Assembly (NCBI GenBank): GCA_027310565.1
Contig: DAIDAP010000006.1
Span: 1 to 46,940 of the forward strand
Source of the DNA: Chloroflexota bacterium
GTDB taxonomy: Bacteria > Chloroflexota > Limnocylindria > P2-11E
Direction: 5' to 3'
Length of the DNA: 46,940 nucleotides
Shown: positions 12,204-38,395 of the stretch, piece by piece
Numbering within the stretch: the first letter of the stretch is position 1
Layout of the letters: each line of letters starts with the position of its first letter
Notes under the pieces: model-generated
Database searches by the model: none
Seen by the model: the letters and a program-made list of their open reading frames with translations, nothing else
What the model was told of the DNA's origin: nothing
Made by a program: the position numbers and the translations under genes

Positions 12204-13661
12204 CTAGAACGCGCGAGGATTCCCGCGTATTCGCTCCGTCGCCGCCTGCTCCGCGGCTTCGCCGAGGTCGCTCATGAGCGCGCGCATCCAGTCGCGCGAC
12301 GTCCAGCGCAGCACGGCCTCACGCATGAGCCCGGCGCGGCGGCGCCGCTCCTCGTCGGGCATGTCGATGGCGCGTTCGAGCGCCGACGCGGTGTCCTCGA
12401 CGGAGAGCGGGTCGATGCCGATCGCGCCCTCGGCGAGCTCGGCGTACGCGCCCGCGGCGCGCGACAGCACGATCGCGGCACGCGGATTGAGCACGGCAGC
12501 CTCCTTCGCGACGAGGTTCATCCCGTCGGCGACGGAGTTCACGAGCACGACGTCGGCAGCGCGCAGCTCGGCGAGCGCGCGGCCGCGGTCGGGGCGCTTC
12601 ACGATCTCGACGGTGCCCGGGCCGTGGCGCGCGTTCACGGCGCCGGCCGCGGCCGTGGCCTCGTCCCACTCGCGCGCGTACTCGGGGAGCTGCACGCGGG
12701 ACGGGACGACGCGGGCGACGAAGCGGACCCTTCCGGCGAGATCCGGGCGCCGCTCGAGGAGCTGCCCGAACGCCCGGAAGCCGCGCGGCACGTTCTTGAT
12801 CGGGTCCACGCGGTCCACCCGCACCACGAGCACCCGCGGGTCCTCGCGCAGCGCGCGTGCGCGCGCCTCGCTGGGCCGCAGGTCGCGCGGGTCGATCGAC
12901 ACGGGGCGAACGCGCAGGAGCGTCCGCCGGCCGCCGTGCGTGAGGCGCTCTCCGTCCGTCTCGGCCTCCGGGAGCAGCGCGCCGGCGCACGCGGCGAACT
13001 CGCGGCGCGAGCCCTCGTCCTGGAAGCCGAGCACGTCCGCCCCCAGGGCGCCGCGCAGGAGCGTCGCGAGCACGTCGTCGGGCACGGCCCGCCGCCACAC
13101 CTCGAGCCGAGGCCAGGGGATGTGCACGAAGTGCGCGAGCGGCAGGCCGGGCAGCCGTTCGCGCACCAGGCGCGGGAGCGCGTAGAGCTGGTAGTCGTGG
13201 CTCATCACCGCGACGCTGCGCTCGGGACGATGCGCCTCGCGGCTCACGGCGTCGGCGAAGATGCGGGCCGCCTCGAGGTACCGGCGCGCGAGCGCGCGCA
13301 CGCGCTCGACGGGCTCCGGGTCGACGCGCAGCGGCCACAGCCCGTGCTGGACGAACCAGAGGATGCGGTTGCTGAACGCACCGTAGAAGTCGGCGAAGAG
13401 CTCCTCGGGGATGTCGAGCAGCCGCAGCGTCAGCCGGCCGCTGCCCAGGACGCCGCCGCGCTCGCGCTGCGCCGCCGCCACCTCGCGATCCTCGGACCCG
13501 GCGGTCGCGGCGATCCACGTGACCGGCGTCGCCCGCGACAGGTGTGACAGCGCGGTCACCACGCCACCCGCGCCGCGATCGAACCGCAGGCGGGCCCCCC
13601 GGCGCGCGAAAGTGACGGGCGCGCGACTGGTGACGAGGAGCAGGGAGTCCTCGCGCCTCAG
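12204..13661 (-). CDS. otsA: Trehalose-6-phosphate synthase-like glycosyltransferase (GT20)
   Basis: A GT20 protein of about 485 residues that would join UDP- or ADP-glucose to glucose-6-phosphate. Seen motifs: VTSRAPV at the N-terminus, HDYQLYALP, HIPWP, RVDRVDPIKN (in place of the usual DYTKG) and NSVADGMNLVAKEA near the C-terminus. No ATG, GTG or TTG exists between the upstream otsB frame and the first conserved strand. The only sensible initiator is CTG at 13661, overlapping the otsB stop as CTGA, with GGAGG 10 bases upstream. Coupling to otsB or a frameshifted OtsB-OtsA fusion are the alternatives. The DPIKN variant leaves some doubt on exact acceptor. Confidence 0.85.
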   Translation of the reverse strand: MRREDSLLLVTSRAPVTFARRGARLRFDRGAGGVVTALSHLSRATPVTWIAATAGSEDREVAAAQRERGGVLGSGRLTLRLLDIPEELFADFYGAFSNRILWFVQHGLWPLRVDPEPVERVRALARRYLEAARIFADAVSREAHRPERSVAVMSHDYQLYALPRLVRERLPGLPLAHFVHIPWPRLEVWRRAVPDDVLATLLRGALGADVLGFQDEGSRREFAACAGALLPEAETDGERLTHGGRRTLLRVRPVSIDPRDLRPSEARARALREDPRVLVVRVDRVDPIKNVPRGFRAFGQLLERRPDLAGRVRFVARVVPSRVQLPEYAREWDEATAAAGAVNARHGPGTVEIVKRPDRGRALAELRAADVVLVNSVADGMNLVAKEAAVLNPRAAIVLSRAAGAYAELAEGAIGIDPLSVEDTASALERAIDMPDEERRRRAGLMREAVLRWTSRDWMRALMSDLGEAAEQAATERIRGNPRAF

Positions 13662-14506
13662 GACGCCAGCGCCTCCACGGCCGAGTTGAGCAGCGCGCAT
13701 ATCGCGCCGGGCGAGTCCACGCGGACGTCGGGCTCGACCTCCTCGGTCACGCCTGCGCCCACGGCCACGACGAGGGCGGCGCCGCCGATCGCGGCCGCGT
13801 GCTCGCGGGCCGCGACGAACGCCGGCACGTCGACCGCGTCGTCGCCGAGCACGACGAGGCCGCGGAGCCCGTAGGCATCGGCGATGGTGCGCAGGCTGCG
13901 CCCCTTGTCGCTCTCGATCGGGGCGCGGACCTCGACGTGCGCGGTGCGCGGGATGACCTCGAGTCCGCGACGCGACGCGACGCGACGCGCGACCTCGAGG
14001 ACGCGCGGGCCGACCGAGGGCTCGCGGCGGTAGTGCACGGCGAAGCCGATGCCCTTGTCCTCGAACACGAGCCCGGGGACGTTCGCCAGTGAGAGGCGCA
14101 GCATCGCCTGCGCGCGCGCGAGGCGCGCGTGGTAGCGCTCCGCCCCCGGCGGACGGAGCAGCTCGCCGCGGAACCAGCGCTCGGCGCCGTGGTTGCCGAC
14201 GTAGAGCGCCTCGTCGATGCGGACCATGCGCCACGCCTCGTCGGCGGGTCTGCCGCTCATGACGCAGAGGAGGTCCACGTGCGGCGCGATCGCCTGGAGC
14301 GCCTCGCGGCACGCGGGATCCACCCACGCCTCGCTCGGCGTGGCCACGATCGGGCTGATCGTTCCGTCGATGTCCGTGAAGATCGCGCTCGGTCGCCGCC
14401 CGAGCGTGTCCGCGACCGCCCAGCTGTTGAGATCGCCGGGGGGGCGCACGCGCGGGCGCGAGCCGTCGTCCCGGCGTGGGGAAGGGTCGATCGTCGCGGT
14501 GGCCAT
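13658..14506 (-). CDS. otsB: Trehalose-6-phosphate phosphatase
   Basis: A 282-residue HAD-superfamily phosphatase of the trehalose-phosphatase family (PF02358). Motif I is FTDIDGTIS (about residue 45), motif II is CVMSGRP, the conserved Lys is in ESDKGRSL and motif IV is VLGDDAVDVPAF. It would remove phosphate from trehalose-6-phosphate made by the downstream synthase. ATG at 14506 follows GGAGGAG with good spacing. It is the first gene of a leftward otsB-otsA pair and is divergent from the glgE operon. A tandem CGCGA repeat lies inside it. Confidence 0.92.
   Translation of the reverse strand: MATATIDPSPRRDDGSRPRVRPPGDLNSWAVADTLGRRPSAIFTDIDGTISPIVATPSEAWVDPACREALQAIAPHVDLLCVMSGRPADEAWRMVRIDEALYVGNHGAERWFRGELLRPPGAERYHARLARAQAMLRLSLANVPGLVFEDKGIGFAVHYRREPSVGPRVLEVARRVASRRGLEVIPRTAHVEVRAPIESDKGRSLRTIADAYGLRGLVVLGDDAVDVPAFVAAREHAAAIGGAALVVAVGAGVTEEVEPDVRVDSPGAICALLNSAVEALAS
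13966..13989. repeat. Pentanucleotide tandem repeat inside otsB
   Basis: CGCGA occurs four times without interruption at 13966-13985, and a near copy (CGCGC) follows. It encodes a harmless Arg/Ala/Ser stretch in otsB. Because the unit is not a multiple of three, gain or loss of a copy would shift the otsB frame and also affect coupled otsA translation. Confidence 0.6.
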
Positions 14507-37137: not shown

Positions 37138-37595
37138 GCGGCCGACGCCTGGCGATGCTCGTGGCGGTCCTCGCCGTCGCCGGCGCCGTCGCGTGGAGCG
37201 CGCTGCCGCGGCCGGAGACGCAGACGGAGCGCGTCGACCGCATCGCGTCGCAGCTGCGCTGCGTCGTGTGCCAGGGTCTGTCGGTGCGGGACTCGCCGTC
37301 GGAGACCGCGCGCCAGATGCGTGCCGTCGTCAGCCAGCGCGTCGGGGAGGGACGGACCGATCGGCAGATCTTCGACGAGTTCCGCGACGCGTACGGCGAC
37401 TGGATCATCCTCTCTCCGCCGCTCCTGGGGTGGACCGGGCTCATCTGGCTCGTACCGGTGGCGGCGCTCCTGCTGGGCCTCCTGCTCGCGGTGCGCTGGA
37501 TCCGGGCGGGGCCGCCGCCGCCGAAGGCGGACCCGTCTCCCGCCGACCTCGCGATGCTGCGCGAGCGCGCCGCGCGCGAGGAGGCGCTCGACTGA
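37134..37595 (+). CDS. ccmH: Cytochrome c-type biogenesis protein CcmH
   Basis: A 153-residue protein with a signal/anchor (residues 5-22), the redox motif LRCVVCQGLSVRDSPSE near 41-57 and a C-terminal transmembrane helix (about 105-123). It keeps apocytochrome Cys residues reduced for heme ligation. GTG at 37134. The gene normally between ccmF and ccmH, the thioredoxin-like ccmG, is missing here. Confidence 0.93.
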   Translation: MSGRRLAMLVAVLAVAGAVAWSALPRPETQTERVDRIASQLRCVVCQGLSVRDSPSETARQMRAVVSQRVGEGRTDRQIFDEFRDAYGDWIILSPPLLGWTGLIWLVPVAALLLGLLLAVRWIRAGPPPPKADPSPADLAMLRERAAREEALD

Positions 37596-38395
37596 GCTAC
37601 CTGCTCTTCGCGGCGCTCTTCCTCGCCGGGCTCGCGCTCGCCGCGCTGCCGTTCCTGTCGCGCCGCGCGCCCGCGTGGCCGAGCGAGGCGCCCGACGCGC
37701 GGGACGACGTCGCCCGCGCGGTGAGCGGCCTGCGCGACCTCGAGTTCGCGCGCGCCGCCGGGACGATCTCGACCGAGGACCACGCCCGCCTCACCGCCCT
37801 GCTCGCGCGCGGCGCGTTCGCGCCGGCGCGCTTGGAGCGGGCTGTCACCGCGCCGTGGCGGACCATCGTGGCCGGCGCGCTGCTCGCGGGCGCCGTCGCC
37901 GTGGTCGTCGTCGTGACGCTGCCGCGGTCGGTCGGCGATCGCGCGCCGGGCGCGCCGATCACCGGAAGCCTGCCGAGCGGTGCGCCGAGCCTCGAGCAGC
38001 TCCAGGCGCGCGCGAGCGCCGCACCGACGGACGTCCCGACGCGTCTCGCGCTCGCCGACGCGTACATCGAGAACGACCGCCTGAGCGAAGCGTCGGTGGT
38101 GTACCGGCAGGTCCTCGACCTCGACCCGCGGAACACGCCGGCCCTCAACGGCCTCGCCATCGTGCTCTTCCGCGCGGGGTCGTCGGACGGCGCGCTCCTC
38201 GCGCTCGACCGCGTCCTCACGCTCAACCCCAAGGAGCCCGACGCGCTGTTCCTCAAGGGGCTCATCCAGTACCAGCGCGAGGATTGGAAGGGCGCGGCCG
38301 CGACCTGGCGGGTGTTCCTCGACGTCGGCGAGTTCGATCCGCGCGCCGGGATGGTGCGCCCGCTCTACGACGACGCGGTGAAGCGGGCGGGGTGA
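37592..38395 (+). CDS. ccmI: CcmI-like TPR protein
   Basis: A protein of about 267 residues with an N-terminal anchor (residues 2-20), a short region with RDLEFARAAGTISTEDHARL typical of CcmI, a second transmembrane helix (about 90-110) and two to three TPR units (DVPTRLALADAYIENDRLSEA; TPALNGLAIVLFRAG; PDALFLKGLIQYQREDWKGA). The only possible start ahead of the first helix is CTG at 37592, overlapping the ccmH stop as CTGA. GAGGAGG at 37578-37584 gives a 7-base spacer. A GTG start further inside would remove the anchor. Confidence 0.85.
   Translation: MSYLLFAALFLAGLALAALPFLSRRAPAWPSEAPDARDDVARAVSGLRDLEFARAAGTISTEDHARLTALLARGAFAPARLERAVTAPWRTIVAGALLAGAVAVVVVVTLPRSVGDRAPGAPITGSLPSGAPSLEQLQARASAAPTDVPTRLALADAYIENDRLSEASVVYRQVLDLDPRNTPALNGLAIVLFRAGSSDGALLALDRVLTLNPKEPDALFLKGLIQYQREDWKGAAATWRVFLDVGEFDPRAGMVRPLYDDAVKRAG

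Follow-up and report, generated by a model that had tools for sequence, protein, structure and literature searches.

In the window (the whole stretch of 46,940 nucleotides from a Chloroflexota bacterium that was analysed), the otsA-like gene probably starts at a CTG codon at 13661 and forms a translationally coupled pair with otsB, whose stop codon the CTG overlaps as CTGA. The sole ortholog pair found in the otsB-otsA arrangement among 28 genomes of the family (genome G017, 54% identity) consists of two separate genes in the -4 nt arrangement, joined by ATGA. Relative to the first conserved strand, its ATG is at -7 codons, the exact offset of the CTG in the window, so in this one ortholog pair a start codon stands at the same site. 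A CTGA in the -4 register is cheap by itself; the conserved offset in the ortholog is what exceeds chance. The features are listed in Table 1.

Table 1. Features of the otsB-otsA junction and of the second CTG junction in the window.
Feature	Position	Strand	Remarks
otsB, trehalose-6-phosphate phosphatase, 282 aa	13658..14506	-	ATG start; stop TGA 13660..13658
otsA-like glycosyltransferase family 20 gene, 485 aa	12204..13661	-	read from CTG (fMet-RREDSLLLVTSRAP...)
Proposed otsA start codon CTG	13659..13661	-	overlaps the otsB stop as CTGA
Shine-Dalgarno-like GGAGG	13672..13676	-	ends 10 nt before CTG 13661
Rival start ATG in the otsA frame	13698..13700	-	no Shine-Dalgarno core of at least 4 nt
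TPR-repeat protein gene	37592..38395	+	TPR families; CTG start 37592..37594, overlaps upstream TGA 37593..37595
Shine-Dalgarno AGGAGG	37579..37584	+	7 nt before CTG 37592

An earlier sequence-only reading of this DNA had described the CTGA overlap at 13661 and a GGAGG 10 nt upstream, and both were confirmed. The otsB frame ends with GCG TCC TGA (13660..13658, - strand), and the otsA frame runs across the junction as CTG AGG CGC GAG GAC TCC CTG CTC CTC GTC ACC. CTG 13661..13659 and the TGA of otsB have two bases in common, giving a 4-nt overlap. If CTG is the start, then start and stop share two bases on one strand as in an NTGA (-4 nt) pair, with CTG in place of the ATG or GTG of such pairs. 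The 3′ end of the 16S rRNA reads GGATCACCTCCTTTCT, which is standard.

The same reading had found no usual start in the otsA frame ahead of the first conserved strand. It had missed ATG 13700..13698, which is in the otsA frame 13 codons 5′ of the CTG and whose overlap with otsB would be 43 nt. It is the sole standard start within 59 codons upstream of CTG 13661, and the frame stays open far upstream of the CTG. Downstream, the next standard start in the frame is GTG 13562, within the conserved domain. A standard start is therefore near CTG 13661, and none is near the CTG at 37592.

The OtsA search (28 family genomes, E 1e-40) matched three genomes: the source genome, G017 and G009, the last as a fragment without the N-terminus. 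The OtsB search (29 genomes of the order, E 1e-20) matched the source genome and G017. The otsA gene of G017 has an additional GTG at -4 codons from the first strand, and no standard start further upstream than the ATGA was found within 60 codons. Thirty OtsA homologs on named contigs (L033-L062) were compared; in 25, the standard start closest upstream of the first strand is 3-6 codons away from it. The others have it at -1, -12, -14 and -42, except for the homolog of the Actinomycetes MAG CSMAG_651 (L033:250-300, +): there, an in-frame stop lies at -17 codons, and from this stop to the first strand no standard start occurs.

The main alternative is that the ordinary ATG 13700 is the start of otsA, which would overlap otsB by 43 nt, and that the CTGA is coincidental. 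This ATG is in frame with otsA and lies at -20 codons from the first conserved strand. It would fit most of the 12 other OtsA loci of the class: 9 have their first standard start 17-23 codons ahead of the strand (19-23 in seven). Such overlaps also exist elsewhere, as sole starts 6-22 codons upstream were found in 5/76 pairs of other register. In seven of the 12 class loci (L006, L007, L008, L011, L013, L015 and L016), however, otsB is convergent to otsA; the pair is therefore not overlapping there and the arrangement differs. GGAGG precedes CTG 13661, whereas ATG 13700 has no core of four nucleotides. It also counts against the ATG that, of 859 gene ends, about 12% have a standard start in that frame within 20 codons. 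The segment of 13 codons that separates ATG 13700 from the CTG has a dicodon score of -14.0. Each of 55 ATGA genes scores higher over its first 13 codons (mean +3.2), and such a value is usual for the -1 frame at the end of a gene (mean -20.9, n 351). The segment looks non-coding, though the overlap with otsB would constrain it anyway. Two trainings gave different onsets for the otsA coding signal, 13670 the first time and a point 48 nt 3′ of the CTG the second time; because the two onsets differ, the coding signal alone does not separate the two starts. Against ATG 13700 also stands G017, where ATGA occupies the position of the CTG with no further standard start in the 60 codons upstream, and we regard a start at ATG 13700 as unlikely. 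CTG 13661 appears to be the better otsA start, and we hold this with fairly high confidence. The earlier proposal that otsA starts at CTG is thus probably right, by the ATGA offset in G017, the N-termini of the homologs and the Shine-Dalgarno sequence.

The earlier reading had also suggested a frameshift that joins OtsB to OtsA. They would then be made as one protein, through a -1 frameshift or because a base is missing in the assembly. The two frames abut, otsA has no strong start, and bifunctional synthase/phosphatase proteins exist (the PRK14501 model of such proteins was matched by both the OtsB and the OtsA part). We rejected this fusion, which is highly improbable: the last 193 nt of otsB contain neither an XXXYYYN heptamer, the slippery site of a programmed -1 frameshift, nor a run of at least five equal bases, G017 keeps two separate genes in the -4 nt register, and this register recurs at other junctions of the bacterial family. 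We give very little credence, too, to a sequencing or assembly error by which the C at 13661 replaces the first base of an ATG or GTG. G017 does have ATG where the window has CTG 13661, but the window holds a second CTG case and other assemblies repeatedly show near-cognate junctions, so an error at 13661 is not needed.

The identities of the two proteins were compared with family models. OtsB matched PF02358 with 92.4 bits and passed the curated cut-off of TIGR00685 (125.8 bits vs 68.05). OtsA had a strong family-level match to PF00982 (267.9 bits) but did not reach the cut-off of TIGR02400, trehalose-6-phosphate synthase (243.1 vs 564.85), and is therefore a divergent family-20 enzyme. Its best solved relatives are trehalose-phosphate synthase (5lqd) and then VldE (3vdm). 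The product of the OtsA-like protein may be other than trehalose-6-phosphate.

Two cases of CTGA had been claimed for the window, and we took the other one to be 37592..37594 (+), at the start of the TPR gene. No standard start was found at -50..+25 codons around this CTG. From 25 loci of the gene, three were dropped (no N-terminus, contig edge, low identity) and 22 were kept. The junction is CTGA in the source genome and ATGA (15) or GTGA (6) in 21/21 rows of relatives from 20 genomes, G008 contributing two rows. By ungapped projection, 13 of these starts fall on the projected place and 6 miss it by one codon; in the two rows of G008 the distance is four codons. The TPR gene is the clearest candidate for a CTG start and a stronger case than otsA. 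In total, four in-register CTGA junctions are present in the window (2681, 13661, 37592 and 40448). Those at 2681 (-) and 40448 (-) are ordinary CTGATG with 1-nt overlaps.

Junctions were then counted in 1,122,625 of the 2,794,070 bases of the source genome (40%; stretches plus the window). A dicodon gene caller without a start-codon requirement gave 967 genes. Among the 704 same-strand neighbours, the downstream frame stayed open over the stop at 464 junctions, and 334 of these were in the -4 register, with the codons ATG (80), GTG (134), TTG (10), CTG (65) and NTA (45). C precedes TGA in 251/619 TGA-ending genes of the sample. In 30 of the 65 in-register CTGA junctions the next codon is ATG (CTGATG), an ordinary 1-nt overlap. 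Without filtering, no other standard start at -20..+10 codons was present in 16/65 CTGA, 10/45 NTAR and 25/130 other-register junctions, which is no excess. For these two reasons the raw CTGA count was discarded as general evidence. At junctions without other starts, a Shine-Dalgarno core of at least 4 nt was seen in 6/16 CTGA, 23/53 ATGA and 5/25 other-register cases, and one of at least 5 nt in 1/16, 13/53 and 1/25, respectively. The Shine-Dalgarno sequences at such CTGA junctions are modest.

A different result was obtained with a filter that required coding onset within 15 nt of the junction and a gene score of at least 60, with starts scored at -20..+8 codons. The standard start was missing in 10/39 CTGA, 2/8 CTAR, 0/9 GTAR and 5/66 other-register junctions. 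Compared with the pooled controls (other register plus GTAR, 5/75), the p-value for CTGA is 0.006; the filter was chosen during the analysis, so p-values are indicative. NTAR was dropped as a neutral control, because in relatives the pattern extends to ATAG and CTAG. The otsA junction is outside the 10 filtered CTGA junctions because of ATG 13700 and the 48-nt coding onset. When the limit was set at 30 nt, 14 near-cognate junctions without a standard start were found in the source genome. Two of these were judged false, C4:57315 with an ATG at +11 codons (MDFDLSPEQ) and C8:100245 with an ATG at +10. The sequence-only reading had suggested that this lineage routinely uses CTG in coupled overlaps. 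Counted on 40% of the genome, this goes too far for CTGA as such; the filtered subset does lie above the controls, and the relatives add ATAG and CTAG to the habit.

Relatives were scanned with the same dicodon caller, namely the same genus (379 kb, G001-G003) and genus g5 (366 kb, G008, G018 and G022). In the same genus, the standard start was missing in 3/4 CTAR, 0/4 CTGA, 0/3 ATAR, 0/2 GTAR and 1/17 other-register junctions. In g5, the corresponding counts were 4/4 ATAR (6/6 at 30 nt), 1/2 CTGA (3/4 at 30 nt), 0/2 CTAR, 1/4 GTAR and 2/13 other register. When the family was pooled, 20/66 near-cognate junctions (CTGA, CTAR and ATAR) had no standard start, compared with 9/111 for other register plus GTAR (p 0.00016). 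G030, from another family of the class (400 kb), had 0/10 near-cognate and 3/19 other-register junctions without a standard start. The family differs from it with p 0.04 (20/66 vs 0/10), this outside control being small. At the strict limit the Methylorubrum extorquens AM1 megaplasmid (400 kb) offered no near-cognate junctions for scoring; at 30 nt it had 1/1 without a standard start, but with an ATG at +10.

Several near-cognate junctions were followed across genomes, with the locus of the source genome included in each count. For the MFS transporter at C6:75642 (18 loci, 3 dropped), no ATG, GTG or TTG is present at -20..+8 codons in 14/15, and the last has GTG at +8. Nine junctions read CTGA, four CTAG (3 genomes) and two ATAG. 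A GAAGGG-like Shine-Dalgarno sequence is followed, two codons on, by CTG, ATA, ATC or GTC depending on the genome, so the exact start codon there is uncertain. NuoD at C8:108740 (30 loci, 8 dropped) has CTGA in 11, ATAG in 5, TTGA in 1 and none seen in 5. A standard start is missing in 11/22, and two have CTGATG. In five NuoD loci (L182 and L184-L187) the frame is closed by a stop two codons upstream of the CTG or ATA. For the MFS transporter at C4:13756 (30 loci, 9 dropped), GTGA is present in three genomes of the same genus, CTGA in 3, ATAG in 5, CTAG in 3 and GTAG in 1, with no overlap seen in 6; 14/21 have no standard start. Of its three CTGA loci, one is that of the source genome; of the other two, one has a further start and one has none. 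That the pattern returns in separate assemblies speaks against sequence errors. As a pattern in the sequences, the recurrence of near-cognate codons at stop overlaps is supported in the family and is conserved between genera; the family probably has a true habit of starting coupled genes at such codons.

The translation from CTG looks like a complete N-terminus for nuoD, a putative fmt and a transporter-like gene, the last named by reading and having GAGG 7 nt upstream. The gene read as fmt, methionyl-tRNA formyltransferase (LSTRVVFLGTPAFAVP), is located in the source genome at L114:18197 (-, C8). It is at CTGA with GGAG 5 nt upstream, and its other standard starts are at -38 and +14 codons only. 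A dihydropyrimidinase-like gene of G022 (LTDVAIRGGTVVTPDG; L250:7200, -) is at CTGA with AGGAGG 7 nt upstream; its frame is open just 22 codons upstream, where no standard start is found. Other cases are at CTAG. The frame of ftsH in G001 (L240:3384, +) opens 22 codons upstream and has its first standard start at +17. For miaA of the source genome (L104:14926, +, C8) no standard start was found at -50..+25 codons, and the real start may be an ACG three codons upstream, after GAGGG. At C6:91602 and C6:75642, ATC is located two codons upstream of CTAG. Some CTAG cases, these three among them, may start elsewhere.

Apparent near-cognate starts were also seen outside overlaps. The alaS gene of the source genome (C8, L111:6440-6442, -) has an apparent ATA start with an SD-like AAGGGAG upstream. 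An in-frame stop is at codon -3 before the ATA, which is followed by IDSAEIRERF; no standard start precedes the conserved domain, and the next one sits inside it. The match to PF01411 begins at query residue 7, and the alignments to solved AlaRS chains at residue 4 or 5, the ATA being residue 3. In G008, the gene of a Clp N-domain protein (L256:8764-8766, +) seems to start at an ATA located 5 nt behind GAGGTG, and its frame is closed by a stop at codon -4. When genes without a standard start were sought irrespective of junctions, no excess was found in the source genome. In closed frames the counts were 12/295 for the source genome, 6/110 for the genus, 16/110 for g5, 5/116 for the other family and 4/59 for Methylorubrum. 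With free upstream DNA they were 22/363, 6/111, 17/117, 7/139 and 7/101 in the same order. Several start-less genes of this search were rejected as overshoot of the caller, for example rpoA, whose ATG is just outside the range.

In the mechanism that we propose, otsB and otsA would be translationally coupled and share the common NTGA overlap of -4 nt, with CTG where the ortholog has ATG. A ribosome terminating at the otsB TGA would be kept near the CTG by the GGAGG 10 nt upstream. It would then re-initiate one base back, with fMet-tRNA on CTG. Near-cognate codons may be tolerated at junctions of this family, probably since coupling delivers the ribosome to the right place. The purine that follows the codon in CTGA and ATAG may assist through a fourth pair with the initiator tRNA. 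The sequence itself, the conserved offset, the ATGA of the ortholog and the lack of standard starts at several conserved junctions are observed; initiation at CTG, its re-initiation mode and coupling as the reason for tolerance are what we infer. The tRNA of the same-genus genome G001 that we take to be the initiator, by likeness to the E. coli sequence, has the usual G-C stem. As this tRNA looks ordinary, the explanation would have to be sought in coupling as such or in initiation factors. No tRNA-Met was found in the source-genome stretches scanned, and no IF3 was found by a short motif in the DNA scanned.

A wider reading is that start-codon choice is relaxed family-wide at stop overlaps. 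CTG, ATA and possibly ATC or CTA would then be stable conserved starts, even for the housekeeping gene nuoD, and occasionally without an overlap (alaS, ATA). From the sequence comparisons, we consider this tentative, the balance tipping slightly against it. Gene callers generally seek ATG, GTG and TTG, and genes of this family at some operon junctions would be truncated, extended or missed. If near-cognate starts at stop overlaps are stable over genera, re-initiation after termination would be less strict about the start codon than de novo initiation. Such leniency, if true, bears on how coupling works, and the family offers natural junctions with CTGA, ATAG and CTAG, those of NuoD and two transporters.

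CTG is a start codon in NCBI table 11. CUG expression in E. coli is given as 0.86% of that of AUG, which counts against a CTG start, and CUG accounts for 0.024% of bacterial initiation codons (PMC11497404). An ancestral AUG changed to CUG in 2 of 61,358 starts among close genomes (PMC5622118). The -4 nt NTGA overlap with termination-reinitiation is described in PMC6728339, PMC10666635 and PMC12548453. NTGA is by far the commonest spacing motif according to a review (PMC12548453), and a survey gives ATGA or GTGA for -4 nt overlaps and a rare non-canonical ATT for -5 nt overlaps only (PMC10666635). Among the matches listed, which cover part of the literature, we recognised no paper on CTG or ATA starts at coupled overlaps. 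The otsB-otsA junction is like the known -4 nt NTGA overlap in its register and in the two bases shared by start and stop. It differs in that the proposed otsA start is CTG, and relatives also have ATA or CTA with TAG. Compared with the rare bacterial CTG starts, the CTG would likewise be read by the initiator tRNA; here, however, such starts are at stop-overlap junctions and recur within one family. As in the start-codon switches reported in PMC5622118, CTG is found at a conserved site that is ATG or GTG in relatives, whereas here at least two such cases (13661 and 37592) are present in one 47-kb window.
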